DNA of 64,000 nucleotides from an uncultured Eubacteriales bacterium (lineage in GTDB: Bacteria > Bacillota > Clostridia > Peptostreptococcales > Anaerovoracaceae), in NCBI GenBank assembly GCA_902763505.1, contig CACWSO010000001.1:145390-209389 (forward strand). The letters run 5' to 3'. This document shows, piece after piece, positions 8,791 through 58,920 of this stretch (position 1 is its first letter; every line of letters starts with the position of its first letter). Both the position numbers and the translations under genes were made by a program. The notes beneath the pieces were generated by a model. The model was not told the origin of the DNA and made no database searches. It was given only the letters and a program-made list of their open reading frames with translations.

Positions 8791-9510
8791 TTAGTCTATA
8801 TATAACTCTGCAATCAGTCCATGCTCTCCGGTTCTTCTTCCGCCAAACGCTTCTGATGTGCGAACAGGCATGCCTTCCGGTTTATCGCCCGTTACTGCAC
8901 CGCTGCCGATTACCATGGCCAATCCGGACGGTGTGACCATTTCTCCTTCATATTCAGTCTGCTTGTAACTGAGATCGCAGTCGTCCAGCATCGCCTTTAC
9001 TGCAGGTACCGGTACATTCAGAACTCCATGGGCGCATTTCACTGTTCCGTGTCCATCACAGATGTCAGAAACGATTACAGTATCCGCATGCAGTTCATTC
9101 AGACAAACCGCAACGCCGACGACATTGGCAATCGCCTGATCACGGCCTACTTCATGGAAATGAAGCTCTTCCAGGGAATCGCCATGTACGGTTGATTCAG
9201 CCTTTGCGATCACCGCATAGATCTGCTGCGCAGCAGCTTTTACACCGCTGCTGACGTCGATTGATTCAATGATATGCTTCACATCGCTGTAGCTGCGGTG
9301 AAAGTGTTCGTGAACGTGTTCATCATGGTTGTGAACATGATCATGATCATGTTCATGATCGTGCTGATGTTCATGGGATGCTCCAATCTGATGGCTGATT
9401 CTGTGTATTTCAGATCGAACCGCCTGAGGATCTTCGTTCAGATCGATTAGGGCATTCAGCACCATATCACCGCTGACACCGTTTTCACAATTCAAATATA
9501 TTTTCTTCAT
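8791..9510 (-). CDS. LarC-like protein, divergent paralogue with His-rich insert
   Basis: A 239-residue protein of the LarC N-domain (TIGR00299-type) family. It keeps the N-terminal GxSGDM and the HFHEVG motif. It differs from its neighbour at conserved positions: the first Asp is Asn (NCENGVSGDM), and the usual AVDSIVDIVG after HFHEVG has become RDQAIANVVG. Residues 46-71 are a His/Asp/Glu-rich insert with 14 His, a likely nickel or other metal store. The C-terminal CTP-binding LarC2 part is absent. LarC proteins install nickel in the pincer cofactor of lactate racemase; no larA, larB or larE lies in the window. It begins 15 bases after the paralogue, with CGGAG upstream. Confidence 0.8.
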   Translation of the reverse strand: MKKIYLNCENGVSGDMVLNALIDLNEDPQAVRSEIHRISHQIGASHEHQHDHEHDHDHVHNHDEHVHEHFHRSYSDVKHIIESIDVSSGVKAAAQQIYAVIAKAESTVHGDSLEELHFHEVGRDQAIANVVGVAVCLNELHADTVIVSDICDGHGTVKCAHGVLNVPVPAVKAMLDDCDLSYKQTEYEGEMVTPSGLAMVIGSGAVTGDKPEGMPVRTSEAFGGRRTGEHGLIAELYID

Positions 9511-9525: not shown

Positions 9526-10293
9526 TTATTTCGTTTCAGCAAGCATCACTGTCATCGGCGGAAGCCCAGTATCACGTTTTCCGGTACCTCTGCCAATGGC
9601 GCTTTGATTTACGTCTTTCCAGGCTTGTTCAAAAGCATCCTCCTCCAGAAAACGATCAACGACTCCTGCCAGGACGGATGCACCTGTCGGCGTCAGCAGC
9701 TCCTGCTCGATATCAGAACGGTAATGCGGAATCCCTGTATTTCTCAATATGGCGGCTGTCGCAGGTGCTGGTACCGGAAGTGTTCCCCATGCACACTGCA
9801 CCGTTCCAAATCCCGTAGGGACAGGTGTGGAAACCACGGTGTCTGCACTGATGTAATCTAAACATATCGCAGCTCCTACAATGTCCACGATGGAGTCCAC
9901 TGCTCCCACTTCATGGAACTGCACCTCATCAACAGGCACACCATGGGCTTCTGATTCCGCAATTGCCTTGATGTCAAAGATCTGACGGCTCAAATTCTTC
10001 GCATGATCATTGAGATCAGACCGCCCAATCATCTCCTTGATTTCTCCATAGTTCCGGAATTTGCCGCTGTAGGGGTGAATCCAAGCGTTTTCTTTATTAT
10101 AAAGGATCACATCGACATCTGTTACCGGTGATCCATTGTATTCTTTTTCATTTACTGACAGCTCAAACTCATTGAGTCCAAGACTTGCCAGTCCCTTCTC
10201 CAGAACATCTAAAGGGACACCAAGAGACAGCATTGCCCCCAGTGTCATATCCCCGCTTGCTCCGGATCTGCAATCGATAAATAGCGTCTTCAT
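9526..10293 (-). CDS. LarC-like nickel-insertion protein (N-domain only)
   Basis: A 255-residue protein with canonical LarC1 motifs: DCRSGASGDM at the N-terminus and QFHEVGAVDSIVDIVG near residue 125. Full LarC is roughly 400 residues and in lactobacilli arises by frameshifting from larC1 into larC2. Here the frame ends at GLPPMTVMLAETK and the next gene is a second LarC1-like copy, so no LarC2 domain is seen in any frame. Role in nickel-pincer cofactor metallation is inferred from the family only. No ribosome site is visible; the leader predicted from the upstream promoter is very short. Confidence 0.82.
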   Translation of the reverse strand: MKTLFIDCRSGASGDMTLGAMLSLGVPLDVLEKGLASLGLNEFELSVNEKEYNGSPVTDVDVILYNKENAWIHPYSGKFRNYGEIKEMIGRSDLNDHAKNLSRQIFDIKAIAESEAHGVPVDEVQFHEVGAVDSIVDIVGAAICLDYISADTVVSTPVPTGFGTVQCAWGTLPVPAPATAAILRNTGIPHYRSDIEQELLTPTGASVLAGVVDRFLEEDAFEQAWKDVNQSAIGRGTGKRDTGLPPMTVMLAETK

Positions 10294-10403: not shown

Positions 10404-11345
10404 TTACAGTCTGTCCAGTGCTTTTGCAACCTTGATCAAACCTTCGGTCAGGTTCTTTCTGGATGCTGCGATTTCTTCTTCTGTCCATTCCTGGAAGCCC
10501 TTGCCCGTCTTGAATCCCAGGTCTCCCTTTTCGACCTTTTCAACAAGAAGCTTGGACGGTTCCGTTGAATTCTCAATATGTGGGAACAGATATTTGTGAA
10601 TGGAATAAGTCAGATCCACGCCTGCATTGTCGATGACTTCCATTGGAGCCATCACGCCAAGACGCATACCGAATCCGTACTTGATCGCATCATCAACATC
10701 CTTCGCATCAGCGATGTCGTTTTCAACGATGGAAATTGCTTCTCTGAACAGCGCATGCTGCAGTCTGTTAGCCAGGAATCCCGGTACGTCTTTTTTGACC
10801 AGAACCGGCTTCTTTCCTGCTCCTTCAAGGAGTTCAAACATAGCCTTTTCGGTCTCTTCTGAAACGTACTTTGTACGGATCACTTCTACCAGTGGAATCA
10901 GATAAGCCGGATTCCAATAGTGCGTTCCGATGATTCTTTCCTTATGTACTGATTTTTCAGCGATTTCCGTAATGCTGATAGCAGATGTGTTGGAAGCAAG
11001 AATCGTCGACGGCGGACACAGTTCGTCCAATGTCTTGAAGTAGTCCTGCTTTACTGCCAGATTCTCAACGATACATTCGAAGATAACATCTGCAAATTCC
11101 GCTGCTTCCTTCAGATCTTCTGTAAAGCTTACGTTATTGATTGTCTCTTCGATCTGCGCTTCATCGATGACGCCCTGATCAACCAGAACCTGTAAATTGT
11201 TGCGCATGGTCTCTACTGGTTTTGCTCTTACTTTGTCATCATAGACATAAATCAGCATAACCTTGTGGCCCTTTGATGCAAAGAGCTGAGCGATACCAGT
11301 ACCCATCATACCTGCGCCTAAAACAGCAACATTTTTCTTTGCCAT
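10404..11345 (-). CDS. 3-hydroxyacyl-CoA dehydrogenase family protein
   Basis: A 313-residue NAD(P)-dependent dehydrogenase. The Rossmann motif GAGMMGTGIAQ is at the N-terminus. The catalytic region reads GTHYWNPAYLIPLVEV instead of the GxHFFNPxPxMxLVEV of butyrate-pathway Hbd, and the C-domain has PGFLANRLQHALFREA. That variant is seen in relatives acting on free 3-hydroxy acids as well as CoA esters, so the substrate is open. ATG 11345 was chosen over TTG 11351 because CGGAG lies 7 bases before it. It is transcribed alone from a sigma-54 promoter and closed by a terminator. With the thiolase and BKACE it suggests oxidation of a 3-hydroxy compound. Confidence 0.85.
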   Translation of the reverse strand: MAKKNVAVLGAGMMGTGIAQLFASKGHKVMLIYVYDDKVRAKPVETMRNNLQVLVDQGVIDEAQIEETINNVSFTEDLKEAAEFADVIFECIVENLAVKQDYFKTLDELCPPSTILASNTSAISITEIAEKSVHKERIIGTHYWNPAYLIPLVEVIRTKYVSEETEKAMFELLEGAGKKPVLVKKDVPGFLANRLQHALFREAISIVENDIADAKDVDDAIKYGFGMRLGVMAPMEVIDNAGVDLTYSIHKYLFPHIENSTEPSKLLVEKVEKGDLGFKTGKGFQEWTEEEIAASRKNLTEGLIKVAKALDRL

Positions 11346-11417
11346 AATCAAACTCCGTTTTTCTTAATTCAATAAACTATATACGTACTTTGTTGAAAAT
11401 GAATTATTAATATAAAT

Positions 11418-11434
11418 AGCAAATGCTGTGCCAA
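11418..11434 (-). promoter_or_regulatory. Sigma-54 promoter of the 3-hydroxyacyl dehydrogenase gene
   Basis: On the - strand TTGGCACAGCATTTGCT: a -24 TTGGCAC, 5-base gap and -12 TTGCT, matching the sigma-54 consensus at all invariant positions. The expected start is near 11407, giving a leader of about 60 bases. Confidence 0.85.
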
Positions 11435-11497
11435 TTCTTCTACCTGATTATACCCTTGTTTACACAGCAAATTCATGTAATATCGTATCAAAAATGG

Positions 11498-11532
11498 ATT
11501 TGTTGCAACAAATTGTTGCTAATGTGCAACAA
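11498..11532. promoter_or_regulatory. Upstream activator sites of the sigma-54 regulator
   Basis: A perfect 16-base palindrome ATTTGTTGCAACAAAT (11498-11513) directly followed by the inverted repeat TTGTTGC-N6-GCAACAA (11513-11532). They lie 65-100 bases upstream of the -24 element of the dehydrogenase promoter and just upstream of the regulator's own promoter, so they can serve activation on one side and autoregulation on the other. Confidence 0.75.
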
Positions 11533-11559
11533 ACAGCTTTCTTTTAACAGATTATCTGC

Positions 11560-11565
11560 TATAAT
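11560..11565 (+). promoter_or_regulatory. Extended -10 promoter of the sigma-54 activator gene
   Basis: TATAAT preceded by TG and one base (TGCTATAAT); no good -35 is seen, which suits an extended -10 promoter or one needing an activator. Confidence 0.5.
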
Positions 11566-11606
11566 AAAAAAACTTGAATGTGAGAAAACACAATGAGGAG
11601 GACATC

Positions 11607-13142
11607 ATGGATCAGGCACTGGCCATCAAGATAATTCAGAATAAAATCAATACCGCCTTGGAACAGAGCGATACATCAAACCCGTCCGAATGCCGTGCCC
11701 TTCTGCAGGAAATTGCATCGGATTTGAATGTATTTCTGTCGGAAGGCATCGATTACAAACTCGTCGTGGATAACTTAGATGAGAGTATCTTCATAACCGA
11801 TAAAGATGGTAAGGTTCTCTATGTCAACCCCGCCTATGAAAACAATACCGGCATACTGCGTGAAGAAGTGTTAGGCAGAACGGTTCAGGATATTCTTGAA
11901 GAAGGAAAGCTCTTTAGCGGCGGCGCAACACTTGATGTGATCAAAATGAAAAAACGCGTCTTCAGATTGTCCACCATCTTGAAAACAGAGCCCCATCACA
12001 CAGGTTATGCAATTGGCGTTCCTATCTTTGATGGGGATGGCGAACTGTCTCAGGTTGTTGTAAGCAGCCGCCCTATTTTCACGCTGCGTGAGCTGCAAAA
12101 CGATTATCATCGCTTTCTTGATGAAGTAACTTTCATTAATGAGCAGAAAGAACTCGTTAAGCTTTTTGAAAATGCGGGACAGATCCCGATATCAGATAAT
12201 CTGATTGGATCCTCCCCTGCCCTGCAGAAGGTATATGAACTTGTGCAGAAAGTCGCACCTACGGATGCAAGCGTTATGCTTACCGGTGAATCCGGTGTTG
12301 GTAAAGAAATCGTAGCCGATGAAATCTATAAACTGGGTCCAAGGAAAGATAAGCCGTTTGTAAAAGTCAATTGTGCATCTATTCCCTCAAATCTATTGGA
12401 ATCGGAACTCTTCGGTTATGAAAAAGGTGCGTTCACTGGTGCAAATGCTTCCGGTAAACGTGGACTATTTGAAATGGCCAACCACGGCACGCTGCTTTTG
12501 GATGAGATTGGTGATATGCCGCTGGATCTGCAGGTCAAACTGTTGAGGGCCATCCAAAACAAAGAAATCACCCATGTTGGCGGTACAAAGCCGATTCCAC
12601 TGGATATTCGGTTCATTTCCTCTACAAATTCAGACTTAAATAAAAAAATCGAGGAAGGCACCTTCAGGCGTGATTTATTCTACCGTCTCAGTGTCATCCC
12701 GATTCATATCCCACCGCTTCGGGATCGTACGGAAGATCTGGAAGAACTTTGCAACCACTTCATCAGTATCTTCGGCGAACACCATGGCCACAGAATTCAT
12801 TTGCTTCCGGAACATCTGAATCTGATGAAACGGTACAACTGGCCGGGCAACATCCGTGAATTGGAAAATGTCATTGAATATCTCACCATCTGCAGTTCCG
12901 GAACAGGATATATAGATACGGATATGCTCCAGGGTCTGCTGAATATTACAGATATCGATGAACAGAATGTGAACGACGCCTCCCTGGCGGAGTCCATGGA
13001 ACAGTATGAGATCGCGCAGATTGAGAATGCGCTGGCCAATTCACACAATCTGCGTGAAGCCGGAAAAATCCTCGGTGTCAACGCATCTACAGTATCCCGT
13101 AAAATCAAACAGTATGGAATCCCTTATCCAAAGAGCAAATAA
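11607..13142 (+). CDS. Sigma-54-dependent transcriptional activator (PAS-AAA+-Fis HTH)
   Basis: A 511-residue bacterial enhancer-binding protein. A PAS sensor (about residues 52-165, DESIFITDKDGKVLYVNPAYE) is followed by the AAA+ domain with Walker A GESGVGKE (about 227-234), the sigma-54 contact loop GAFTGA (about 274-279), Walker B LLLDEIGD, and a Fis-type helix-turn-helix at the end (NLREAGKILGVNASTVSRKIK). There is no response-regulator receiver, so it likely senses a small molecule through PAS. The ATG at 11607 follows GAGGAGG at 5 bases; the upstream TTG at 11574 lacks a site. It sits between two targets that carry sigma-54 promoters and matching palindromes. Confidence 0.95.
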   Translation: MDQALAIKIIQNKINTALEQSDTSNPSECRALLQEIASDLNVFLSEGIDYKLVVDNLDESIFITDKDGKVLYVNPAYENNTGILREEVLGRTVQDILEEGKLFSGGATLDVIKMKKRVFRLSTILKTEPHHTGYAIGVPIFDGDGELSQVVVSSRPIFTLRELQNDYHRFLDEVTFINEQKELVKLFENAGQIPISDNLIGSSPALQKVYELVQKVAPTDASVMLTGESGVGKEIVADEIYKLGPRKDKPFVKVNCASIPSNLLESELFGYEKGAFTGANASGKRGLFEMANHGTLLLDEIGDMPLDLQVKLLRAIQNKEITHVGGTKPIPLDIRFISSTNSDLNKKIEEGTFRRDLFYRLSVIPIHIPPLRDRTEDLEELCNHFISIFGEHHGHRIHLLPEHLNLMKRYNWPGNIRELENVIEYLTICSSGTGYIDTDMLQGLLNITDIDEQNVNDASLAESMEQYEIAQIENALANSHNLREAGKILGVNASTVSRKIKQYGIPYPKSK

Positions 13143-13172
13143 TCACCAATTCAAATAATCCATGACATTAAA

Positions 13173-13212
13173 AAAACCGCTGCACCGAGTTGATACTCAA
13201 TGCAGCGGTTTT
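13173..13212. terminator. Bidirectional terminator between activator and catabolic operon
   Basis: AAAACCGCTGCA (13173-13184) pairs with TGCAGCGGTTTT (13201-13212) around an inner GAGT/ACTC stem. A- and T-runs on both sides let it serve the two converging units. Confidence 0.85.
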
Positions 13213-13245
13213 GCTTTTGCAATTAATGTTTACACATTATGTAGA

Positions 13246-14163
13246 TTAATATACGCCGTAAGGATATTCCTTGTCCGGAACGCTCTTGTCGATTCTGTCT
13301 GATGGAACGAATGCAACGGCTCTTACGATGGTACCGTCTCCCATGTACCAGCGAAGTGGGAACGCACAGAACAGGAATCTCTGATTCTTAACTTTATCCA
13401 GATCGCCGCCCAGGTTCTCAATACCCATAACGTTATGAGCAAGTAAGATGTCGTGGCATGGTTCCCACTCAGGGAAATCTTCCTCGATCGGATGTCCGGC
13501 CATTTCTTCGTACTCTTCTACAATACGAGGAACATATGGGCCAGGGCCGTGCTTGCCGCCGTAGGTGTAAAGGAAGTGGTCAATGGCCTGCATATCGAAG
13601 CCAACGCCTCTTACCTTATGCTCTACGAACCACCAGGCTCCTTCGATGGAAAGTCCAGGGCTGTATCCGAAGTAATCTTCGTTCTCACCCCAGCGTCTGT
13701 GAGTACCTGTATTCAGCAGTACCCAGTCACCTTCTTTGATTCCGCCTGGAACCTTCTTGGCTGCTTCTTCAATCTCTTCAACTGTGATCATCTCCCACTT
13801 GCCCTTAGGGATGTCCAGACATACAGCTTCACCAAAGTAGTTCTGGATCGGCAGTTCATGAGTGAATGGACTCTCTGGAATTACATGTGACGGAGAATCG
13901 GCATGGGTTGAGTTGTGCATGTGGAATGAATTGAAGGTCTGCAGAAGTCTGTAATGCATTGGCATATGCTGGACTCTGTCAATGTGGAAGTCTCCGTTGG
14001 ACGGCCAAAGCGGATTGCCTCTTCCGAATGGGTTGGAGAGGTCCAGAAGTTCGAACTGTCCATCTTTGAACATATCGAAAATGCTGCCGTCATAAGGCTT
14101 CTTCCAGTCATATGTGTGCGCATAATTCTCTTCACGCGTGTGTCTCTCATAAATTTCTGACAT
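13246..14163 (-). CDS. Cyclase-family metal-dependent hydrolase
   Basis: A 305-residue member of the cyclase / kynurenine formamidase-like superfamily. The metal-binding signature is HNSTHADSPSH (H83, H87, D89, H93), a variant of HxGTHxDxPxH, and a second conserved His region follows near VGFDMQAIDHF. Known members hydrolyse formamides, isatin or cyclic amides. At 305 residues it is longer than bacterial KynB (about 210). It is the last gene of the seven-gene operon and could open a ring or cleave an amide before the beta-keto acid step; this is inference. ribosome site AAAGGAG precedes the ATG. Confidence 0.82.
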   Translation of the reverse strand: MSEIYERHTREENYAHTYDWKKPYDGSIFDMFKDGQFELLDLSNPFGRGNPLWPSNGDFHIDRVQHMPMHYRLLQTFNSFHMHNSTHADSPSHVIPESPFTHELPIQNYFGEAVCLDIPKGKWEMITVEEIEEAAKKVPGGIKEGDWVLLNTGTHRRWGENEDYFGYSPGLSIEGAWWFVEHKVRGVGFDMQAIDHFLYTYGGKHGPGPYVPRIVEEYEEMAGHPIEEDFPEWEPCHDILLAHNVMGIENLGGDLDKVKNQRFLFCAFPLRWYMGDGTIVRAVAFVPSDRIDKSVPDKEYPYGVY

Positions 14164-14187
14164 AGTTTGTTCTCCTTTCTAACATAA

Positions 14188-14709
14188 CTATATTCTGACG
14201 ATTCTTCCCTGTTTGCGCTCTGGCGCCGGTGGAAGATCGCCTTCTCTGTATCCCAGGATACAGTTTCCGATACCTACGAAGCTGTCGCCGATGCCCCATT
14301 TAGCCTTCAGCGCTTTGCCTTCTTCCGTTTCGAAGACTTCTTTGGCTCTGTGGACCCAACATGAATCCACGCCTTCAGAAAAGGCTGCCAACATCATGTT
14401 TCCAATGACAAGACTACCATCTTCGACAGGAGTGGCTGTTTCAGCTGCATCTGCAAAGACAACGACTACAGTCGGTGCTCCATAGAACGGATCGATATCC
14501 ATGCCCATGACTTTGGCGTTAAGACCGCTCATGACAGCAATGGTTTCCGGATCCTGTACAGGTACGATTACGGTTGACTGTGATCCCATTCCACTTGCGG
14601 CGTATGTGCCGGCTTCCAGAATGGCATCCAGCTGCGCATCTTTGATCTGGTCATTCTTATATGCTCTGATGCTGCGTCTTTCCTTCATGTTTTTAATTAC
14701 TTCGTTCAT
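14188..14709 (-). CDS. Nitroreductase family flavoprotein
   Basis: A 173-residue FMN-binding protein with the N-terminal RRSIRAYKNDQI motif that contacts FMN phosphate and the later GVDSCWVHRAKEVF and IGDSFVGIGNCILGY regions of the family. Natural substrates vary widely (enoates, quinones, iodotyrosine, nitro groups). ATG 14709 is preferred to TTG 14730 because AAAGGAT lies just upstream of it. It lies 24 bases before the cyclase-family gene and 27 after the BKACE gene, so it belongs to the same transcript and probably reduces an intermediate of that pathway. Confidence 0.85.
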   Translation of the reverse strand: MNEVIKNMKERRSIRAYKNDQIKDAQLDAILEAGTYAASGMGSQSTVIVPVQDPETIAVMSGLNAKVMGMDIDPFYGAPTVVVVFADAAETATPVEDGSLVIGNMMLAAFSEGVDSCWVHRAKEVFETEEGKALKAKWGIGDSFVGIGNCILGYREGDLPPAPERKQGRIVRI

Positions 14710-14736
14710 TGTTGTATCCTTTTCACCCAATGTGAT

Positions 14737-15582
14737 TTACACTCCAAGAATCTCTCTGGCTTCTTCCGGAGTAGCTGGTTCTTTGCCCATCTCTCTGGCA
14801 ATACGAACTACTCTGGCGATGAACTGTTCATTGGATTCTGCCAGAACGCCCTTGTTGTAGTAGACATTATCCTCAAGACCTACACGGACGTTGCCGCCCA
14901 TGGCGATACCGGAAAGCAGGATTTCATTGGCTCCTCTGCCGATGCCGAACGTACTCCATGTACAATCTTCCGGCAGATGATTTACCAGGTAAACCAGATT
15001 CTCTGTTGTGGCTTCCATTCCTCCCGGTGCACCGAGACAAAGCTGGAAGTGAGCCGGTCCCTTGATAATACCCTTCTTCAGATAATACTTAGCAGTATTG
15101 AGCATGCCCATATCAAAGACTTCGATCTCCGGTTTGACATTCACTTCCTGCATGACTTCTCCGCACTTTTCGAGGAAGCCAGGCTCATTCATGAACACGA
15201 CAGTATTGAGCCAGTTCATGGTACCTGCATCAAAGGATGCCATTTCCGGTTTCAGTTCCTTGAATGGTTTGATACGCTCATCCCAGCTGAATCCCTGACC
15301 GCCTGAGGAGGTCAGGTTGATGATTCCAGGGAAGTTTCCATCACGCAGCTTCGTAACGATTTCTTCAAACCGATCGAAGCGCATGCTTGCGGTATCGTCC
15401 TCGTTTCTGACATGAATGTGAACACAGGCAGCGCCTGCCTCATAGCATTTCCATGCAGATTCTACGATTTCGTCCGGTTGTGTCGGCAGTGCCGGGTTGT
15501 CTTTTTTTGTCGTGACAGCTCCGGTCAGAGCCGCTGAAATAATGATTTTATCTTTATGATTTGATCTTCTAGTATCGAACAT
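14737..15582 (-). CDS. Beta-keto acid cleavage enzyme (BKACE / Kce family)
   Basis: A 281-residue TIM-barrel protein of the BKACE family (founder: 3-keto-5-aminohexanoate cleavage enzyme of lysine fermentation). The zinc-binding HIHVR motif is at H55/H57, with LTSSGGQG, CLGAPGGMEAT and VGLEDN later in the chain. BKACE enzymes react a beta-keto acid with acetyl-CoA to give acetoacetate and a new CoA ester. The other lysine-fermentation genes (kamD/E, kdd, kal) are absent, so the keto acid here is probably not that of lysine. The thiolase next to it could deal with acetoacetyl units. Confidence 0.9.
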   Translation of the reverse strand: MFDTRRSNHKDKIIISAALTGAVTTKKDNPALPTQPDEIVESAWKCYEAGAACVHIHVRNEDDTASMRFDRFEEIVTKLRDGNFPGIINLTSSGGQGFSWDERIKPFKELKPEMASFDAGTMNWLNTVVFMNEPGFLEKCGEVMQEVNVKPEIEVFDMGMLNTAKYYLKKGIIKGPAHFQLCLGAPGGMEATTENLVYLVNHLPEDCTWSTFGIGRGANEILLSGIAMGGNVRVGLEDNVYYNKGVLAESNEQFIARVVRIAREMGKEPATPEEAREILGV

Positions 15583-15621
15583 TATGATACTTCCTTTCTT
15601 AGCGAATAAAGTGGTTCCCGT

Positions 15622-16800
15622 CTAAACCATTTCGACAAGAACTGCGACACCCATACCGCCGCCGGCGCACAGCGTCGCAATACCGTACTTCTGGTCTCTT
15701 CTCTTAAGCTCGTGAACCAGAGTGACTACCAGTCTTGCTCCTGTTGCACCTACCGGATGTCCAATGGAGATACCTCCGCCGTTGACATTCAGCTTATCGA
15801 TATCGATACCTAAATCTCTCTGGCATGCCAGGCACTGTGCCGCGAAAGCTTCGTTCATCTCCCAGAGGTCGATATCATCGACTGTGAGACCGGCTTTCTT
15901 CAGAACTTTTCTCGATGCTCCAATCGGACCAAGACCCATGTAATCAGGGTCGAGACCAACAGCACCAACGGAAAGAACGCGTGCGATGATCGGAACGCCC
16001 AGTTCCTTCGCTTTGTCTTCATTCATCAGAAGTACGCCGGATGCAGCATCATTCATACCGGAAGAGTTACCGGCAGTAACCTTACCGTCTTCTTTGAATG
16101 TTGCCTTCAGCTTGCCAAGTTTCTCCAGTGAAGTATCCCTTCTCGGGAACTCATCAGTATCACAGACAGTATCGCCCTTCTTGCCTTTGATGGTAATTGG
16201 AACGATTTCGTCCTTGAACTTGCCAGCATCGATTGCTGCAACAGCACGCTGGTGGCTCTGCAGAGCATATGCGTCCATTTCTTCTCTGGTGATGCCATAA
16301 CGCTCCGCTACGTTCTCGGCTGTGATGCCCATTGCTGGACCGACGCCCAGATTCGTGAAGGAGTCCCACATGGAGTCACGAAGCTCCATGTGGCCGTACT
16401 TCTTTCCATAACGTGCGTCGAAAACCATGTGTGGCGCAGTGCTCATACTGTCAGCACCGCCGGCCATGATGCAGTCTGCCTCTCCAGCTGCAATCTGGTA
16501 AAAACCAAACTGGATAGATGAAAGTGAAGAGGTGCAGTTCCTATGAATGGTGATACCAGGAACGCTCTCAGGCAAACCTGCCTTTACTGCGGCTACACGT
16601 GCCAGATTGTTTTCTTTGTATGTTCTCTGGTAGTTGCATCCCCAGATGACATCTTCGATGATCTCAGGATCGACGCCGGAACGCTTTATGAGTTCCTGCA
16701 TAATCGGAATAGACAAATCCAACGATGTGATGGTCTTGTACATTCCGCCCAGGGCTCCGACTGCCGTTCTGCAAGCCGCTACGATTACTACGTTATTCAT
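15622..16800 (-). CDS. Acetyl-CoA C-acetyltransferase (thiolase)
   Basis: A 392-residue thiolase of standard length. The acylated Cys is C89 (HRNCTSSLSS), the His is in GGISIGHPVGATGAR, and the second Cys is in TLCAGGGMGVAV. It would cleave or form acetoacetyl-CoA or a related 3-ketoacyl-CoA. It lies 39 bases upstream of the BKACE gene in the sigma-54-driven operon, which suggests a catabolic rather than a general butyrate-pathway role. Confidence 0.93.
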   Translation of the reverse strand: MNNVVIVAACRTAVGALGGMYKTITSLDLSIPIMQELIKRSGVDPEIIEDVIWGCNYQRTYKENNLARVAAVKAGLPESVPGITIHRNCTSSLSSIQFGFYQIAAGEADCIMAGGADSMSTAPHMVFDARYGKKYGHMELRDSMWDSFTNLGVGPAMGITAENVAERYGITREEMDAYALQSHQRAVAAIDAGKFKDEIVPITIKGKKGDTVCDTDEFPRRDTSLEKLGKLKATFKEDGKVTAGNSSGMNDAASGVLLMNEDKAKELGVPIIARVLSVGAVGLDPDYMGLGPIGASRKVLKKAGLTVDDIDLWEMNEAFAAQCLACQRDLGIDIDKLNVNGGGISIGHPVGATGARLVVTLVHELKRRDQKYGIATLCAGGGMGVAVLVEMV

Positions 16801-16831
16801 TACGATAGTCCTTCCTATTTATTGCTTTTGC

Positions 16832-18175
16832 TTAGCCTTCAAGATGTTCGCCTGTAACTTCTTCTTCCTTCGCATAGTCCAGATTGTACTTTCTGGTGTT
16901 GAGTATGGAGATCAGGATGAAGTTGATGATCAGCAGACCGATGAATACTACATAAGCTCCTCTCAGTGAGCCGGTAACTCTCAGTGCTGTAGCATTTACG
17001 ATGTAGTTCAGCATGAGAACAACCTGCATGATTGGGAAGTAGATGGAGTATACGATATCGAAGCTGTGACGTCCGAATACGGATGCCGGCAGTGAAGTCA
17101 TGAAGTTTGCTGCTGCGCCGATTGCTACACCGATCATTGCTACGCAGATGTAACCGCCTGTCATGTTGTTGAACAGTACGTTAACTGCCAGTGCAACCAT
17201 GTACCAGAGCAGGAACGCTCTTACTGCAGTCTTAACGCCCAGTTTCTGGTCGATGAAACCAAATGCGAATGATCCGGCAAGACCGATCAGTGCGCATACA
17301 GTCATCAGAGCGATGGCCTTGTTCGGCTCGAATCCGAGCTCGATGTTTCTAGGAACGAGCTGTGACATTACACCTGTTGTTACCATCTGGTTGATACCGA
17401 TGATCAGAGCAACGATCCACATTTCCTTTGTCTTAAGAAGGTCTTTCACTGTCCATCTTGCAGGAGCATCATTTGACATGTCTGCATATTCTCTGTCATA
17501 TACGTCCTGTGTAACGTTATCAGGCAGCTGACCCATCTCCTGAGGAGTGTTCTTGATGATGAAGATTGCGATGAACGCAATAACGATAGCTGCAATACCA
17601 GTGATTGTCATGCCTTTGCCCATGCCGTAAGCACCGATCAGGAATGCGATGAGCGGTACATAAAGGGCTGAACCGAGGTTGTGGCCCATTGTAGTAAATC
17701 CATTAGCAAGTCCCTTCTTCTTAGGCATCCACTGAGTTACCAGGTTTCCGCCGCCCAGGTAAGCTGCTGCATTGATGAATACAGTAACCAGAGTCAGGCC
17801 TGCGAAATAAGTTCCCAGTGTTGTTGAGTGACCATAGAAGATGTAGGATAAACCAGCCAGTGCCAGACATACGACTGACAGCCACTTTGCGCCGATCTTA
17901 GTGAGGATACGGCCGATAACAAAGTATGCTACTACGCCGATGAATCCAGCCCACATTGCCAGTTCAAGCAGTTTTGCGTGGAGGAGTGTAGGATCAGTGT
18001 ATCCCAGCTCCTGCCAGTGTGCATTAACAAATACGTCGATGACGATATTCTGTCCGTCGATTGAGAAACCAATCAGGAACCAGAACATGATCATGCTGTA
18101 AAAGATGATGATCCAGCCTTTACCAAAGTTCACTTTGGTGTTTTCGGACTGGAGCTGCTGTCCATTCTGTGACAT
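16832..18175 (-). CDS. MFS transporter, OFA (oxalate/formate antiporter)-like
   Basis: A 447-residue protein with twelve predicted membrane helices and a central cytoplasmic loop near residues 210-240. Features of the OFA branch are the glycine-rich segment LGGGNLVTQWMPKKKGLANGFTT, cut here to its core GGGNLVTQWMPKKKG, and the short acidic C-tail EEVTGEHLEG. Members carry small carboxylates. It lies between the 87-residue gene and thiolase and most likely imports the substrate of the pathway or exchanges it for a product. Confidence 0.87.
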   Translation of the reverse strand: MSQNGQQLQSENTKVNFGKGWIIIFYSMIMFWFLIGFSIDGQNIVIDVFVNAHWQELGYTDPTLLHAKLLELAMWAGFIGVVAYFVIGRILTKIGAKWLSVVCLALAGLSYIFYGHSTTLGTYFAGLTLVTVFINAAAYLGGGNLVTQWMPKKKGLANGFTTMGHNLGSALYVPLIAFLIGAYGMGKGMTITGIAAIVIAFIAIFIIKNTPQEMGQLPDNVTQDVYDREYADMSNDAPARWTVKDLLKTKEMWIVALIIGINQMVTTGVMSQLVPRNIELGFEPNKAIALMTVCALIGLAGSFAFGFIDQKLGVKTAVRAFLLWYMVALAVNVLFNNMTGGYICVAMIGVAIGAAANFMTSLPASVFGRHSFDIVYSIYFPIMQVVLMLNYIVNATALRVTGSLRGAYVVFIGLLIINFILISILNTRKYNLDYAKEEEVTGEHLEG

Positions 18176-18211
18176 AATTATTTCTCCTTAAATGATTAGT
18201 AATGATAACTT

Positions 18212-18475
18212 TTATGCTCCAAAGGCTTCGTCGGTTGCTGCTTTGACCATTTCATCCCAAGTCTCATATTCAGTGCTCTCCTTGACGAAGTTGTTGAATA
18301 CGGTCTGGGAATACACGAGTCTAGGGGAATCCCATGACGCCATAACGGCGCTGGAATAGCGGAAGCCCTCGAAATTCTTAAAATTGGTATGCTTCTGCAT
18401 GAACTCGTCGCTGAAGATCTTATTCAGAAGGTCTTTCAGCTCCTGTGTGTAGTTAATAGAAACATAATCGTTCAT
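18212..18475 (-). CDS. Small protein coupled to the DUF362 gene, function unknown
   Basis: An 87-residue soluble protein I do not recognise. It is rich in aromatic residues (FKNFEGFRYSSAVMASWD), has no Cys, no signal peptide and no helix-turn-helix, and ends WDEMVKAATDEAFGA. Its ATG overlaps the stop of the DUF362 gene (TAATG), so the two are translated in fixed ratio. That suggests a small subunit or dedicated partner. A good ribosome site is not obvious because coupling supplies the ribosome. Confidence 0.75.
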   Translation of the reverse strand: MNDYVSINYTQELKDLLNKIFSDEFMQKHTNFKNFEGFRYSSAVMASWDSPRLVYSQTVFNNFVKESTEYETWDEMVKAATDEAFGA

Positions 18476-19761
18476 TATTTGCTCTCCGGATGTTCTTTGA
18501 AGTACTCTTCTGCCTTTGCAAATACGTAGTCATGCCATACCTGAGCGTCTCTTGCCATGCAAGGTCTGATGATTTCATCTTCCTGATCGCCCATTCCGTT
18601 GATGATCTCTTTTCTCTGTATTGTCAGATAAAGAGCCGGTTCGTTTGGAGGGCATCCCAGGATCCAATATGCATTTGGATGATCCTTCAGGTACTTCTTC
18701 GTGCAGTTGCCATGGAGAACGAGTTTGTCGTCAGGAATGTCCTTAGGAATATCGTTCTGCGGTCCAATAACAACTGTCATTCCTGCATTCTTGTCATATT
18801 CGCCGACTGCCTTCAGCTCTTCCATGTTGATAGCGAGCAGTGCCTGACAACTGGAGCATCCGCCTTCGCAGCGTACATCGTACTCAGGCCATCTTGTGCT
18901 CATGTCACCGATGTAAGGGATCCACATCTGCTTGAAGCATTCTTCTACCGTGTTTCCTACTACTTCGATGTCATCCAGATCATACTTTCCAAGACCTACT
19001 TCCTTAGCTACGTTGAAGTAATCTACAGCAGTAGTATCGATTCCTGTTACTTCGCATGCGATTCTGTCGATTGCTACAGGGTCCTTTGATCCGAGTACCA
19101 TGTTGGATTCGATTGGAACCGGCATGTGCGGTGAGTAACCGGATGCTGCTCTCATAGCGTCCATGATGTTGAGATCAGCCTTACATACAGACCAAACGTC
19201 CATCATAGCCATCGTCAGATTCTGCTGATGCATCTGCATATGAACCTTATCCTGTACAACGCCCTTGATGTTCTTCAGTGCGCCTGAGAATACCATGCTT
19301 GCATGTGCCTTGAGGATCGGCAGGTTGATGAGATGCTCTGCTTCCATGAGTCTCTTCGGCAGCTTAACGTGTGAGATATTGGATCTGAAGTCTCTTACAG
19401 CAACATTTACGAGATCCTTATCTCTCTTGATGTCGTAAGTTTCAACGCCTTCTTCATCGGCTACTGCCTGGATTCCGCTGACCTTGAAGCATTCAATCGT
19501 ATCGCATCCGATAGCTGCTGCTTCGGCGATAACGATTTCCTTAGGGTTAGCTTTTCTGACCTCTCTGATGACCGCTCTGACAACTTCAGGATTTGTGCAA
19601 ACTGAAGTTTCTGGTGGTTCAGCGTGGCCGACATTCGGCTTGATCATAACGGTTGTGCCCGGTCTGATCACGTTTTCAACGCCGCCCAAAAGGTCAAATA
19701 CTTTGGTAACGTTAGCCTGTACGTCTTCACCCTTTACGAGTGCTACTAAAGATTTTGACAT
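18475..19761 (-). CDS. DUF362-domain protein with extra Cys cluster
   Basis: A 428-residue protein. Residues 1-250 match the DUF362 domain (MIKPNVGHAEPPE, LINLPILKAHASMVFSGALKN split around GALKNIKGVVQDKVHM). DUF362 is sometimes joined to ferredoxin-type modules. Here the C-terminal part instead has C298-x3-C302-x2-C305 (CEGGCSSC), C353 (HGNCTKK) and C370 (GCPPNEP), plausible ligands for an Fe-S cluster or metal. ATG 19761 has AGAGGTG 6 bases before it; the upstream frame start at 19821 would sit on the predicted transcription start. First gene of the sigma-54 operon. Activity unknown. Confidence 0.82.
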   Translation of the reverse strand: MSKSLVALVKGEDVQANVTKVFDLLGGVENVIRPGTTVMIKPNVGHAEPPETSVCTNPEVVRAVIREVRKANPKEIVIAEAAAIGCDTIECFKVSGIQAVADEEGVETYDIKRDKDLVNVAVRDFRSNISHVKLPKRLMEAEHLINLPILKAHASMVFSGALKNIKGVVQDKVHMQMHQQNLTMAMMDVWSVCKADLNIMDAMRAASGYSPHMPVPIESNMVLGSKDPVAIDRIACEVTGIDTTAVDYFNVAKEVGLGKYDLDDIEVVGNTVEECFKQMWIPYIGDMSTRWPEYDVRCEGGCSSCQALLAINMEELKAVGEYDKNAGMTVVIGPQNDIPKDIPDDKLVLHGNCTKKYLKDHPNAYWILGCPPNEPALYLTIQRKEIINGMGDQEDEIIRPCMARDAQVWHDYVFAKAEEYFKEHPESK

Positions 19762-19832
19762 AAGTTCACCTCTTTGCTTTCTGGGTTTCCTTAGAAATAA
19801 TTGACTGTTCATTTTCAACATCTTTTATTAAT

Positions 19833-19849
19833 CGCAATATCTATGCCAA
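19833..19849 (-). promoter_or_regulatory. Sigma-54 promoter of the seven-gene catabolic operon
   Basis: On the - strand TTGGCATAGATATTGCG: -24 TTGGCAT, 5-base gap, -12 TTGCG. The GG and GC pairs at -24/-12 are intact. Expected start near 19822, about 60 bases before the DUF362 ATG. Confidence 0.8.
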
Positions 19850-19947
19850 ACGTTTTTTTCCAAGATTTCCGCAAAAACAATAAAAAATAATAAAAACAAG
19901 GGTATTATTTCCAAAATAATCACGTTTTTTGTTGCACAAAGCAAAAA

Positions 19948-19969
19948 GTTGTTGCATCTACGCAACAAC
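19948..19969. promoter_or_regulatory. Upstream activator site of the catabolic operon
   Basis: GTTGTTGC-N6-GCAACAAC, a perfect inverted repeat with the same half-sites and spacing as the one beside the regulator gene. It lies about 100 bases upstream of the -24 element. A weaker copy, TTTGTTGC-N5-GCAAAAA, lies at 19928-19947. Confidence 0.78.
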
Positions 19970-20015
19970 CTTTTGCATCATTTATGCAATTTGAAATATA
20001 AAAGAGGTGTTATGA

Positions 20016-21161
20016 TCAAAATGCCTGTTCCAGTATAGCAATGACATCTTCTTTGGTGATGCCCTGACGAGGATTGAAGCCCAGCACCGGCTCATTGAGC
20101 ACGTCATGAGCGAGCATATCGAAATCCTCCTTTGAGATTCCCTGCTCTTCCAGTGTCTTGATTCCCAGTTTCTTTGTCAGATCAAGAAGCGCATCTGCAA
20201 GCAGGTATTTATCCTTTTCAGGATCACCGCTGCCTGCAATACCGATTGCACCTGCAAGATCAGCCATCTTATCCGGACAGCTTTCAGCATTGTATCGCAT
20301 AACATATGGCAAAACGCATGCGTTTGCCATGCCGTGTGCAAGACCGAAATGCGCACTGAGTGTATGGGCGATGCCGTGTACCAGCCCAAGATTTGCATTT
20401 GAGAAACTGAAGCCAGTGATAATGCAGCCCAGCATCATCTGTTCTCTGGCATCCATGTCATTCCCATCTTCACATACCTTAGGAAGGTTCTTATAGAGAA
20501 TCTCCAATCCTTTCAGCGCATTGTACTCCGTCAGCGGCGTCGCCATGTTGGAGATATAACTTTCTACAGCATGCGTGATCGCATCCATACCTGTTGCTGC
20601 TGTTACGCTCTGTGGAACTGTTCTGGTCAATTCCGGGTCTGCAATCACATCTGTAGCAACGATATTGTTGTCTATGACAACATATTTGATGACCTTTTCT
20701 GTATCGATCAGAGCACTGACATTGGTGATTTCGCTTGATGTACCTGCCGTTGTTGGAATCGCAATCAGCGGAAGACAAGGATTCTTGACCATACCGATAC
20801 CGCCGTACTCTCCTATCCTGCCCTCATTTGTCATCAGAACGTTTACTGCCTTTGCAAGGTCGATACTGGAACCACCGCCAACGGCAACAAATCCTTCCAC
20901 GCCCGCATCTTTTGCAATGACAGCCGCTTCCTCAACCACATCGTTGGTCGGATTTGGAATGACGCCGTCAAAGATACAGTATGAAACACCGGTTTTTTCG
21001 ACTTCGTTGACCACTTTATCAGCAATCCCTGCTGCCTTCACACCACCGTCATATACAACCATGACGGAATTGAGATGATACCCCTTGATGATTTCTGATA
21101 AATCGTTCAATGCTCCTCTGCCGAAATCGATGTTGCTCTTTACAAAAAAGTTGAAGCTCAT
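20016..21161 (-). CDS. Iron-containing alcohol dehydrogenase
   Basis: A 381-residue group III alcohol dehydrogenase. GGGSSIDLAKA binds the nucleotide, PTTAGTSSEITNVSA is the family signature, and the metal ligands lie in GMDAITHAVES and in GLVHGIAHTLSAHFGLAHG. It could oxidise an alcohol or 4-hydroxy acid, or reduce an aldehyde. It is driven by its own sigma-54 promoter, which groups it with the neighbouring island although no TTGTTGC-type site lies directly upstream. GGAGGAA precedes the ATG. Confidence 0.9.
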   Translation of the reverse strand: MSFNFFVKSNIDFGRGALNDLSEIIKGYHLNSVMVVYDGGVKAAGIADKVVNEVEKTGVSYCIFDGVIPNPTNDVVEEAAVIAKDAGVEGFVAVGGGSSIDLAKAVNVLMTNEGRIGEYGGIGMVKNPCLPLIAIPTTAGTSSEITNVSALIDTEKVIKYVVIDNNIVATDVIADPELTRTVPQSVTAATGMDAITHAVESYISNMATPLTEYNALKGLEILYKNLPKVCEDGNDMDAREQMMLGCIITGFSFSNANLGLVHGIAHTLSAHFGLAHGMANACVLPYVMRYNAESCPDKMADLAGAIGIAGSGDPEKDKYLLADALLDLTKKLGIKTLEEQGISKEDFDMLAHDVLNEPVLGFNPRQGITKEDVIAILEQAF

Positions 21162-21180: not shown

Positions 21181-21216
21181 AGACTTTGCTTATGTATATG
21201 ATAAAAAGCAAAGTCT
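21181..21216 (-). terminator. Intrinsic terminator of ruvX, overlapping a sigma-54 promoter
   Basis: On the - strand AGACTTTGCTT (21206-21216) pairs exactly with AAGCAAAGTCT (21181-21191) and is followed by TTTTTTTAT. The 5' arm contains the -12 element of the alcohol dehydrogenase promoter. Confidence 0.8.
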
Positions 21217-21223
21217 ATGCCAA
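21207..21223 (-). promoter_or_regulatory. Sigma-54 promoter of the iron alcohol dehydrogenase gene
   Basis: On the - strand TTGGCATAGACTTTGCT: -24 TTGGCAT, 5-base gap, -12 TTGCT. The expected start near 21196 falls in the loop of the overlapping terminator hairpin, giving a leader of about 35 bases. Confidence 0.8.
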
Positions 21224-26320: not shown

Positions 26321-26366
26321 AACTGCCTCGCTTTTATCTATTACTGAATTCTTTGGATTAGATTTC

Positions 26367-26402
26367 TCATAATAAAGGGTCTGACAAAAGCATCAGACCC
26401 TT
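26367..26402 (-). terminator. Intrinsic terminator after gcvPB
   Basis: On the - strand AAGGGTCTGA (26393-26402) pairs with TCAGACCCTT (26375-26384), then TATTAT. Confidence 0.8.
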
Positions 26403-26418
26403 AAACAATACATATTGA

Positions 26419-57444: not shown

Positions 57445-58920
57445 TTATTCCTTGATACCTGCGATAGCCTTTGCAAGAGCCTTCTTGCCTTCGATGTTGC
57501 CCTGTCTCTGGATCATGATTCTCTGAGCCTGAGGTGAACCAGCACCATGCATTGACTCTGTTCTGTATCCTACTGCTGCAGCGCCGAGGCACAGGTTCTC
57601 GATCAGTCTGAGAACTCTCATACGCTGTTCAGTTGTGCATGATGGTGCAGCTGCGTAGAACTTGTTGCAGATTTCGCCGATTGTCTCGCCGTTTCTGCCT
57701 ACTGGCAGATCTGAATCGAAGTCTTTCTGAGCCGGCATAGTTACCATCAGTCCGCCTGCGATATCTTCAGCCAGTCTTACGATCTCGTAAGGGAATCTTG
57801 TGATGTTCTGCTTACATACGTTGGCCAGCAGCAGATCGATCTGATAGTTTCCTGCTTCTGTAGGATATCCTTCTGTTGAGCAAGCGATACCGCAGCAGTA
57901 CAGAGTTTCGTTCAGGTGAGTCATTTCAATGAGCTTGTCCTTAATGTGTGAAGCCTTCTGAGCGCCATTGTATTCAGCAGCCAGAGCAGCAGCACCGATC
58001 AGAACGTCACCAACGCCAACCTTGCAGCCGCCGTATGACTGTCTGTGATATCCAGCAAATCTTTCTACAACCATGCCTGCGAATTCATATTCGCCAGCGA
58101 GGAATACATATTCGTTAGGAATAAATACATCGTCGAATACTACGAGAGCTTCCTGTCCGCCGAACTGAGCGTTACCGAGGTCGATGTCAGCGCCTTCTTC
58201 CAGCTTTCTTGTGTCGCAGGACTGTCTTCCGTAGATCATATACATACCGTCAGCATCTGATGGGCAAGCGAATGCTACAGCGTAGTCAGCATCCTCTTCT
58301 CTCATAGCCTGTGTAGGCATTACGATGTGCCAGTGTGAGTTGATGGAACCAGTCTGGTGGCACTTAGCACCGCATACTACGATTCCGTCTTCTCTTCTCT
58401 CTTTGATTCTTACGAACAGATCCTTATCTCTCTGAGCGTGTGGAGCAAGTCCTCTGTCGCCCTTAGGGTCTGTCATAGCACCGTCAACTACCAGGTCTTT
58501 TTCCTGTACCATCTTCAGGAAGTTTGTGAAGTTTTCATGATAGTGAGTGCCATACTTTTTATCAATTTCATAAGTGGATGAGAACATTGCGTTGAATGCG
58601 TCCATACCTACACATCTCTGGAAGCATGAACCAGTCTTCTGTCCGCACAGTCTCTGCATCTTAACTTTGTTCTTCAGGTCTTCAGTGCTCTGGTGAAGAT
58701 GCGCAAATCTGTTTACTGTCTCACCTGTCAGATTTGACTTAGCAGTCATCAGGTCTCTGTATTCAGGGTCCTGAGCCAGGTCATAAGTAACCTTTACGCA
58801 GTTGATGGAAGGTCTGATGATTGGATGATCTACCCAGTTTTCAACCTTTTCACCGAACATGTAAACTCTAGTGTTCAGTTTTCTTAAGCTTTCAATGTAC
58901 TGTTCGCCTGTCATTAACAT
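57445..58920 (-). CDS. abfD: 4-hydroxybutyryl-CoA dehydratase / vinylacetyl-CoA isomerase
   Basis: A 491-residue FAD and [4Fe-4S] enzyme. All four cluster ligands are present at the positions numbered in Clostridium aminobutyricum AbfD: C99 and C103 (SCFQRC), H292 and C299 (YHRQSYGGC). It dehydrates 4-hydroxybutyryl-CoA to crotonyl-CoA by a ketyl radical mechanism and is oxygen sensitive. The ATG at 58920 keeps this numbering. It is followed by a hairpin and the CGGCNP-abfT-abfH genes. Confidence 0.97.
   Translation of the reverse strand: MLMTGEQYIESLRKLNTRVYMFGEKVENWVDHPIIRPSINCVKVTYDLAQDPEYRDLMTAKSNLTGETVNRFAHLHQSTEDLKNKVKMQRLCGQKTGSCFQRCVGMDAFNAMFSSTYEIDKKYGTHYHENFTNFLKMVQEKDLVVDGAMTDPKGDRGLAPHAQRDKDLFVRIKERREDGIVVCGAKCHQTGSINSHWHIVMPTQAMREEDADYAVAFACPSDADGMYMIYGRQSCDTRKLEEGADIDLGNAQFGGQEALVVFDDVFIPNEYVFLAGEYEFAGMVVERFAGYHRQSYGGCKVGVGDVLIGAAALAAEYNGAQKASHIKDKLIEMTHLNETLYCCGIACSTEGYPTEAGNYQIDLLLANVCKQNITRFPYEIVRLAEDIAGGLMVTMPAQKDFDSDLPVGRNGETIGEICNKFYAAAPSCTTEQRMRVLRLIENLCLGAAAVGYRTESMHGAGSPQAQRIMIQRQGNIEGKKALAKAIAGIKE

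Follow-up and report, generated by a model that had tools for sequence, protein, structure and literature searches.

A sigma-54 gene module of Clostridia related to phloroglucinol degradation, with a proposed nickel-pincer enzyme of the DUF362 family

According to the excerpted report on the phloroglucinol pathway of Clostridium scatologenes, the reductase PGR, the cyclase-family enzyme DPGC, the 3HCDH-family dehydrogenase TfD and the BKACE-family enzyme TAL have been tested biochemically, and the gene cluster also holds a thiolase, a carrier and a regulator (PMC10470551). With respect to the nickel-pincer cofactor, one survey counts about 15% of genomes as encoding LarB, LarC and LarE but no LarA, and other users of the cofactor were not known in the excerpted text of that paper (PMC11796402). 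Both systems bear on a group of ten genes around one sigma-54 activator in the stretch analysed here (the window: 64,000 nucleotides from an uncultured Eubacteriales bacterium, assembly GCA_902763505.1, contig CACWSO010000001.1, positions 145,390 to 209,389), which a preliminary description had taken for one sigma-54-controlled catabolic unit acting on a beta-keto acid. As in the C. scatologenes cluster, in so far as the excerpts describe it, a cyclase-family ring opener, a 3HCDH-family dehydrogenase for free acids, a BKACE, a thiolase, an MFS carrier and a regulator stand together; unlike it, the module of the window adds a DUF362 protein, an 87-residue protein (p87), an iron alcohol dehydrogenase (Fe-ADH) and lar genes, with AbfD in its relatives (PMC10470551). 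In the reading preferred here, to which we give about an even chance, this sigma-54 module is a paralogue of the anaerobic phloroglucinol pathway that would take up and open a related polyhydroxylated ring compound and supply butyrate fermentation with acetyl-CoA and a C4 acyl-CoA.

A conserved module related to phloroglucinol degradation

All ten genes of the preliminary description were recovered at their coordinates with the domains named there (list of open reading frames, ORFs, and domain search), the 87-residue protein having no Pfam or NCBIfam hit. As regards a dehydrocarnitine cleavage enzyme, the domain search revealed no thioesterase among the ten. Their core is a module conserved across Clostridia. 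Close copies of the cyclase (64-100% identity, the window copy included) number 19 among 297 genomes of the order, with a gap in identity from 64% down to 41% that is interrupted solely by fragments in one genome also holding a full copy. In 15 neighbourhoods the activator occurs 15 times, the BKACE 14, carrier and thiolase 13 each, DUF362 and p87 12 each, a larC-type gene ten times and the nitroreductase once. A set of 62 named loci (numbers preceded by L) was picked via the cyclase from 68 found, six distant ones being left out (L111-L116, 21-29% identity); it overlaps with the 15 neighbourhoods, the two not being independent, and L056 and L057 share one contig. Present in these 62 loci are the cyclase (61), dehydrogenase (51), activator (49), thiolase (48), DUF362 and p87 (38 each, both together in 36), BKACE (29, comprising 22 of Val, six of Trp and one of Glu type), carrier (28), AbfD (26), larC (23), larB (8) and larE (4), as well as an Fe-ADH in 32 loci (window type 8, another Fe-ADH 24). 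The neighbourhood comparison of BKACE, DUF362 and p87 proposed in the preliminary description thus finds them in 29, 38 and 38 of the loci, respectively. By contrast with these, the nitroreductase is peripheral, being found in eight loci, seven times at 67-96% identity and once at 32%. All counts are lower bounds, since the flanks reach at most 10 kb, many contigs end inside or near the module, and a wider stretch of E. timonensis revealed DUF362, p87 and carrier just outside its 20.9-kb locus. Carriers of the module include Eubacterium ramulus, Flavonifractor, Catenibacillus scindens, Emergencia, Hornefia, Fusibacter and Clostridium thailandense, as well as metagenome-assembled genomes (MAGs) from goat, roe deer and buffalo gut and MAGs of Family XIII, which presumably come from termites. 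A TRAP-type transporter gene set accompanies eight loci (DctM and DctP by Pfam in L038, the others by clustering), and a neighbour cluster ('c13') without Pfam or NCBIfam family, apparently an ORF antisense to the AbfD gene, was left out of the counts.

In the window, three minus-strand units surround the plus-strand activator, the first consisting of the Fe-ADH alone, the second of DUF362, p87, carrier, thiolase, BKACE, nitroreductase and cyclase, and the third of the 3-hydroxyacid dehydrogenase. Each has a -24/-12 site upstream, exact at 11433, with one mismatch at 21222 and with two at 19848. Because sequences with at most two mismatches do not exceed chance in the window (27 found versus 33.9 expected), the site at 19848 rests on its position and on the palindrome upstream of it. 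This 7+6+7 palindrome stands upstream of two of the three units; the window contains TGTTGC-(0 to 9 bases)-GCAACA at just two places (11514 and 19950), where 0.02 would be expected, and in the whole genome the core with its 6-base spacer has two exact copies and two one-mismatch sites elsewhere. In 1.04 Mb of module loci the palindrome was counted 26 times and the reversed control not once. In turn, -24/-12 sites lie within 300 bp upstream of 20 of 30 DUF362, 31 of 63 cyclase, nine of 21 larC2-type and four of eight larB genes, compared with ten of 363 in a set of other neighbouring ORFs; for a second DUF362 type the figure is none of five. The sigma-54 sites and the palindrome mark the regulon, the palindrome being the putative binding site of the activator, and the proposal of one sigma-54-controlled catabolic unit is borne out across the 15 neighbourhoods and 62 loci.

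The module is related to, yet distinct from, phloroglucinol degradation. E. ramulus, E. timonensis, Catenibacillus and Flavonifractor AGMB03687 hold a separate phloroglucinol-type locus, whose proteins share 34-37% (cyclase), 37-47% (dehydrogenase) and 48-50% (Trp-type BKACE) identity with those of the window, and since the same genomes hold both, the module is to be regarded as a paralogue of the phloroglucinol pathway. Hornefia has a separate locus with BKACE and dehydrogenase, a cyclase not being found within the stretch fetched. In E. ramulus, where alone the reductase domain was checked, the phloroglucinol-type locus contains a 264-residue ORF of the SDR family, to which PGR belongs as well; in the 62 module loci, many on contigs that end nearby, PGR-type reductases gave three hits, the best with 28% identity to the E. 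ramulus reductase. The window cyclase keeps Trp20 of DPGC but has Ser for Tyr22, so that only one residue of the pair is present, and the BKACE has Val for Trp16 of TAL. The dehydrogenase, in turn, looks like TfD in every respect considered: the motifs SNTS, GTHYW and VPGFLANR are present, and the CoA-binding residues Lys56 and Asn221 are replaced by Val and Gly (alignment to 6aa8 by eye, assuming a 20-residue tag).

The same Val stands where Kce has Glu14, and with 316.6 bits the BKACE remains under the Kce cut-off of 382 (NF052387), although it belongs to the same family as PDB 2y7d (254 bits). In the FastTree phylogeny the BKACEs of Val type group together with support 0.998, in a clade of 27 rows of which some are repeat retrievals of a gene already included; this clade falls on the Trp-type side of the tree and away from the Glu-type Kce, and residue, score and tree rule out an identity with either the lysine enzyme Kce or TAL. 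Another BKACE elsewhere in the genome does pass the Kce cut-off (395 bits), in agreement with the earlier view that the BKACE of the module is not the one of lysine fermentation. As regards TAL, the window BKACE scores 215.5 bits against NF053538 (cut-off 430), and the BKACE of the E. ramulus phloroglucinol locus is likewise under that cut-off with 230.8 bits.

A further explanation would be a second, divergent copy of the ordinary pathway that acts on phloroglucinol or dihydrophloroglucinol. It would account for the same enzyme families in the same roles and for the Trp kept in the cyclase, and near the same cyclase a TAL-like Trp BKACE replaces the Val type in six loci, five of them in Flavonifractor or related records (L083, L087, L088, L089, L110) and one in a Eubacterium MAG (L081). 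These six loci, to which L072 adds a BKACE of Glu type, also weigh against the preferred reading in that they point to a product close to triacetate and not to a very different one. Such a copy is nevertheless improbable given the separate phloroglucinol-type locus in four genomes, the distant reductase hits and the exchanges Tyr22 to Ser and Trp16 to Val, and it would leave DUF362, p87 and the lar genes unexplained.

The phloroglucinol pathway being its clear paralogue, the module can no longer count as an undescribed pathway without a described relative, and the order carrier, ring opening, 3-hydroxy oxidation, BKACE and thiolase, as suggested before, has its precedent there as far as the excerpts go (PMC10470551). 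The earlier route to a beta-keto acid also comprised de-amidation or lactam opening by the cyclase-family enzyme and a reduction by the nitroreductase. The nitroreductase does lie within the operon, and the relatives of the cyclase in the PDB, all weak by sequence (best E 1e-6), are isatin hydrolase, two kynurenine formamidases and a metal-dependent hydrolase. However, the Arylformamidase score is 44.9 versus a cut-off of 223, and with such weak scores the amidase reading of the cyclase was dropped; as the nitroreductase is confined to eight loci, seven of them close relatives, a part for it as a core step is not supported either, and this route is very improbable.

The DUF362 protein and the nickel-pincer genes

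The preliminary description had noticed neither the LarC pair, and with it the nickel-pincer link, nor the LarA-like fold of DUF362, nor AbfD in 26 of the 62 loci. The two LarC-type genes next to the dehydrogenase are the only PF01969 matches in the genome, both pass the LarC1 cut-off, and they belong to the unit by conservation; the unit is thus larger than the ten genes. As a further observation, the tandem consists of LarC N-terminal halves, one copy being rich in His, and no LarC with the C-terminal domain is among the PF01969 matches of the genome. At least one lar gene is present in 27 of the 62 loci, and examples of LarB, LarC1 and LarE pass their cut-offs. L074 groups cyclase, CbiM/CbiQ/ABC importer, activator, larB, larC, larE, RpoN and AbfD, no DUF362 being seen in that stretch; a metal-sensing repressor adjoins larC in L060 (Pfam), with relatives in L061, L076, L081 and L098.

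The DUF362 protein probably starts near 19761, because only about 12 bases separate the end of the -24/-12 site from the listed ATG, and residues 1-20 of the model have a pLDDT below 50. For its AlphaFold2 model (mean pLDDT 82.5) the top 19 fold matches in the PDB lie between E 2.5e-7 and 6.7e-5, the next match (7.4e-4) being unrelated. Of these, 18 carry the names of lactate or malate racemases or of LarA-like enzymes, and the remaining one (4nar) is a structural-genomics entry whose title gives no function. In a MAFFT alignment of three module DUF362 proteins, one generic DUF362 protein, four LarA and one intermediate protein, H174, K184 and H200 of LarA align with H173, K183 and H198 of the window protein and are identical in nine of nine sequences; the LarA numbering, from the excerpts of PMC7583248, was assigned by motif, L. 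plantarum LarA not being part of the alignment. Among 32 aligned orthologues the three DUF362 residues are invariant, and so are Cys 322, 325, 373 and 390, which may bind an iron-sulphur cluster. Like the LarA superfamily, as the excerpted sources present it, DUF362 thus has its closest model matches there, keeps the three residues and is linked to lar genes (PMC7583248, PMC11770544, PMC11796402); unlike LarA, it belongs to PF04015 and not to PF09861, lacks D72, R75 and H108 and has the four invariant Cys. Because of the predicted LarA-like fold and the equivalents of H174, K184 and H200, DUF362 is proposed here to be a nickel-pincer-nucleotide enzyme outside LarA. More specifically, but more tentatively, it would represent a second nickel-pincer enzyme family acting on a polyphenol-derived hydroxyketone or ring and not on 2-hydroxyacids, and could then be a hydride-transfer isomerase or a dearomatising enzyme with p87 as its partner. 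The predicted model of p87 is confident (94.9), with no PDB match better than E 2.7.

Several features of the protein itself weigh against this proposal. The TM-scores of the fold matches are 0.27-0.42 over the whole chain with root-mean-square deviations of 6-16 A, so that the domain arrangement either differs from that of LarA or is uncertain; equivalents of D72/R75 and H108 are not kept in the MAFFT alignment; and when the profiles of DUF362 and LarA are compared, the match is weak and not significant (E 0.11, probability 0.5%). Against Lar_N (PF09861) the window protein scores 13.8 bits (cut-off 23.3), with weak matches in 15 of 32 orthologues (best E 0.0058). That DUF362 and LarA are related is already known, as Pfam places DUF362 and DUF2088 in one clan according to the excerpts of PMC11770544, and one example from the partly available literature uses DUF362 as an outgroup to LarA. 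A cofactor claim for DUF362 was not found in the literature examined, available in part, nor did the portion of search matches examined include a paper joining 'nickel-pincer' with 'phloroglucinol'.

A 406-residue protein in the genome (G000:C1:59128-59583; L182 8940-10160) passes the cut-offs of both families, with 29.6 bits for Lar_N and 27 bits for DUF362, and is, by these scores, a sequence bridge between the two. The genome also encodes two further DUF362 proteins (G000:C10:852-1484 and G000:C6:54929-55507), one of which shares a contig with larE at a distance of about 11 kb. In NCBIfam the window DUF362 matches only the Npun_F2552 family (88.8 bits, far under the cut-off of 500), which we take to be named after a Nostoc gene, and DUF362 could be the missing cofactor user in organisms without LarA, e.g., cyanobacteria.

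Alternatively, the lar genes might be mere neighbours, there for nickel supply or for a LarA encoded elsewhere, and DUF362 would lack the nickel-pincer nucleotide and act as an iron-sulphur or electron-transfer protein; the ring-opening part of the scheme would still hold in this case. In favour of such a role are the four invariant Cys and the fact that the generic DUF362 protein, which contains Fer4, keeps the same His/Lys/His columns. The window genome has LarB, LarE and a LarA on other contigs, so that the window LarC could serve this LarA; both window copies lack the C-terminal LarC2 domain, the matches ending at profile positions 227 and 223 of 375; and a hairpin with T-run and a TTGACA-TACAAT-like box between dehydrogenase and larC (seen by eye) suggest that larC may have its own promoter in the window. 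Sites of the -24/-12 type were found within 300 bp upstream of none of five larC1-type and none of four larE genes. Across the individual loci, moreover, the presence of lar genes shows no association with that of DUF362 (of 62 loci, 18 have both, 9 lar alone, 20 DUF362 alone and 15 neither; in the 28 stretches of at least 20.7 kb the figures are 13, 2, 11 and 2 in the same order), and the nickel-pincer link therefore rests on shared regulation and module membership. In 14 control genomes DUF362 occurs in four of six LarC-positive and in one of eight LarC-negative ones, being thus missing from two of the former and present in one of the latter.

In turn, the sharing of the sigma-54 promoter type by larB and larC2-type genes with the module, and the palindrome ahead of larC in four loci (L052, L063, L066, L067), speak for the proposed link, as do the LarA-like fold and the three key residues. 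Ten cyclase-carrying genomes all have LarB, LarC and LarE over the cut-off, with LarA over the cut-off in seven, weak in one and without a match in two; the latter are E. timonensis and Hornefia, which have LarB, LarC, LarE and the module with DUF362 but no PF09861 match. In E. timonensis larE, larB and larC stand in a row, and about 30 kb away lies the whole module with DUF362 (81% identity), p87, carrier, thiolase, activator, larC, BKACE, cyclase, dehydrogenase and AbfD. Across the order, LarB has E below 1e-83 in all 19 cyclase-positive genomes and is over the cut-off in 192 of 297, and LarA among the 19 is strong in four, matched between 1e-5 and 1e-3 in four and without a match in 11. However, congeners such as G148, G172 and G193 have LarB but neither LarA nor the cyclase, so a missing LarA is no feature peculiar to genomes with the module. 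On balance we consider the role of lar genes as mere neighbours to be unlikely, though a serious contender.

Substrate class and end product

In all four Family XIII loci (L100, L101, L102, L105) a homologous gene lies between p87 and DUF362 (83-89% identity to the L101 copy), and the L101 copy matches the large subunit of pyrogallol hydroxytransferase over its full length with 1237 bits. A full-length homologue of pyrogallol-phloroglucinol hydroxytransferase (PDB 4v4c) is thus part of four module loci, unlike the locus of the window. A simple scan for Fer4 motifs did not find the small subunit in the four loci, and, as a point against the preferred reading, the hydroxytransferase was found in none of 74 other stretches (58 of the 62 loci plus 16 fetched). 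Ene-reductases with flavin mononucleotide are present in L060, L101 and L105 (Pfam) and in L102 (clustering).

AbfD is present in 26 of 62 loci, and seven of 26 AbfD genes have a -24/-12 site upstream; in the remaining 36 of 62 loci AbfD was not seen, which again weighs against the preferred reading. All 25 proteins listed over 200 bits contain the pattern CxxxC + H(6)CK, and the iron-sulphur ligands of 4-hydroxybutyryl-CoA dehydratase are, as we take it, C99, C103, H292 and C299. The AbfD of L035 matches PDB 1u8v in full length (938 bits over residues 3-491), the substrate of which is presumably a C4 acyl-CoA. Together, the hydroxytransferase in Family XIII loci and AbfD in 26 of 62 loci suggest a substrate of the polyhydroxybenzene type that would be fermented via a C4 acyl-CoA towards butyrate. 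Hydroxyhydroquinone would fit a route over 6-hydroxy-3-oxohexanoate to 4-hydroxybutyryl-CoA on paper, which is only an idea and needs the cleavage of a 1,2-dione.

Flavonifractor is known for a step on the A-ring of catechin-derived compounds, and it carries the module. A different substrate class would be C-alkylated phloroglucinols such as the diarylpropan-2-ol from catechin, the A-ring of which would be degraded to 4-hydroxy-5-arylvaleryl-CoA and an aryl-valerolactone. Smaller residues in both specificity pockets (cyclase and BKACE) and the thiolase in 48 of 62 loci would suit such compounds. Yet the AbfD of the module is very close to 1u8v, for which a C4 acyl-CoA substrate is assumed as above, where a BKACE is seen in a Flavonifractor module it is of the Trp type, and the nickel-pincer genes would have no explanation, so that we hold this substrate class to be quite improbable, less probable still than a second copy of the ordinary phloroglucinol pathway. 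A gene cluster for the breakdown of the flavan-3-ol A-ring was not found in a literature search of titles and abstract starts.

For the preferred reading, the following steps are proposed, the reactions, the DUF362 cofactor and the substrate class being what we infer from the observed genes, their conservation, the regulon sites, the fold similarity and the conserved residues. The substrate would be taken up by the MFS carrier and dearomatised or isomerised by DUF362 together with p87 and the Fe-ADH; LarB, LarE and LarC would make the nickel-pincer nucleotide that DUF362 carries. The DPGC-like cyclase would open the ring by hydrolytic C-C cleavage, the TfD-like dehydrogenase would oxidise the resulting 3-hydroxyacid, the BKACE would form acetoacetate and an acyl-CoA with acetyl-CoA, and the thiolase would carry out thiolysis. 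In many relatives 4-hydroxybutyryl-CoA dehydratase might then lead to crotonyl-CoA.

Locus layout and implications

The coordinates of the module and of the features that surround it are collected in Table 1.

Table 1. Position, strand and basis of assignment of the features in the window
Feature	Position	Strand	Basis
LarC1-type nickel-insertion protein, second copy, N-terminal half only	8791..9510	-	TIGR00299 141.2 bits, cut-off 90; Pfam Ni_insertion 1-223/375
LarC1-type nickel-insertion protein, N-terminal half only	9526..10293	-	TIGR00299 174.3 bits, cut-off 90; larC-type gene in 23/62 loci
3-hydroxyacid dehydrogenase, TfD-like, 3HCDH	10404..11351	-	Ser/His/Asn motifs kept, Lys56 and Asn221 replaced; 51/62 loci
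sigma-54 -24/-12 promoter, exact match, 5' of dehydrogenase	11418..11433	-	motif scan
Palindrome TTGTTGC-N6-GCAACAA, putative activator site	11513..11532	.	motif scan
PAS-AAA-HTH sigma-54 activator	11574..13142	+	domains; 49/62 loci
Cyclase-family metal hydrolase PF04199, DPGC paralogue	13246..14163	-	Trp kept, Tyr22 to Ser
Nitroreductase, lineage-specific extra	14188..14730	-	domain; 8/62 loci
BKACE PF05853	14737..15582	-	Val for Kce Glu14 / TAL Trp16; clade of 27 rows, support 0.998
Thiolase	15622..16800	-	TIGR01930 478.7 bits, cut-off 240.55; 48/62 loci
MFS carrier	16832..18175	-	38-42% identity to carriers of two separate phloroglucinol-type loci
87-residue protein (p87), DUF362 partner	18212..18475	-	no Pfam/NCBIfam model; with DUF362 in 36/62 loci
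DUF362 protein, LarA-like predicted fold, proposed nickel-pincer enzyme	18475..19821	-	start probably near 19761
sigma-54 -24/-12-like site, 2 mismatches, 5' of DUF362 operon	19833..19848	-	motif scan
Second palindrome TTGTTGC-N6-GCAACAA	19949..19968	.	motif scan
Fe-ADH	20016..21161	-	domain; one or other Fe-ADH type in 32/62 loci
sigma-54 -24/-12 site, 1 mismatch, 5' of Fe-ADH	21207..21222	-	motif scan
HpaB/AbfD-family protein, probable 4-hydroxybutyryl-CoA dehydratase	57445..58920	-	NCBIfam HpaB-1 143 bits, under its cut-off

Elsewhere in the window, an AbfD-family gene, a CoA-transferase (butyryl-CoA:acetate type, under the cut-off) and an Fe-ADH lie in a row on the minus strand (54575-58920), a set that looks like the 4-hydroxybutyrate route to butyrate. 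The AbfD-family protein (57445-58920) is of the same family as the module AbfD of the relatives and, by sequence, a probable 4-hydroxybutyryl-CoA dehydratase; near its gene the palindrome was not seen, either exact or with one mismatch, and there is no -24/-12 match within 300 bp upstream. At 24911-30705, also on the minus strand, the glycine cleavage genes GcvT, GcvPA and GcvPB adjoin an ORF that reads like dihydrolipoyl dehydrogenase by eye.

In E. ramulus, Flavonifractor and Catenibacillus the module represents a second ring-opening locus, which an annotation by family only could mistake for lysine fermentation or phloroglucinol degradation. Furthermore, it supplies a concrete, co-regulated candidate user of the nickel-pincer cofactor, with LarA-like predicted fold and residues, and by placing this candidate within the breakdown of a phenol-like compound it makes the question of lar genes without LarA testable. 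The DUF362 protein might thus possibly be a nickel enzyme of a new kind that takes part in breaking down a plant-type phenol.

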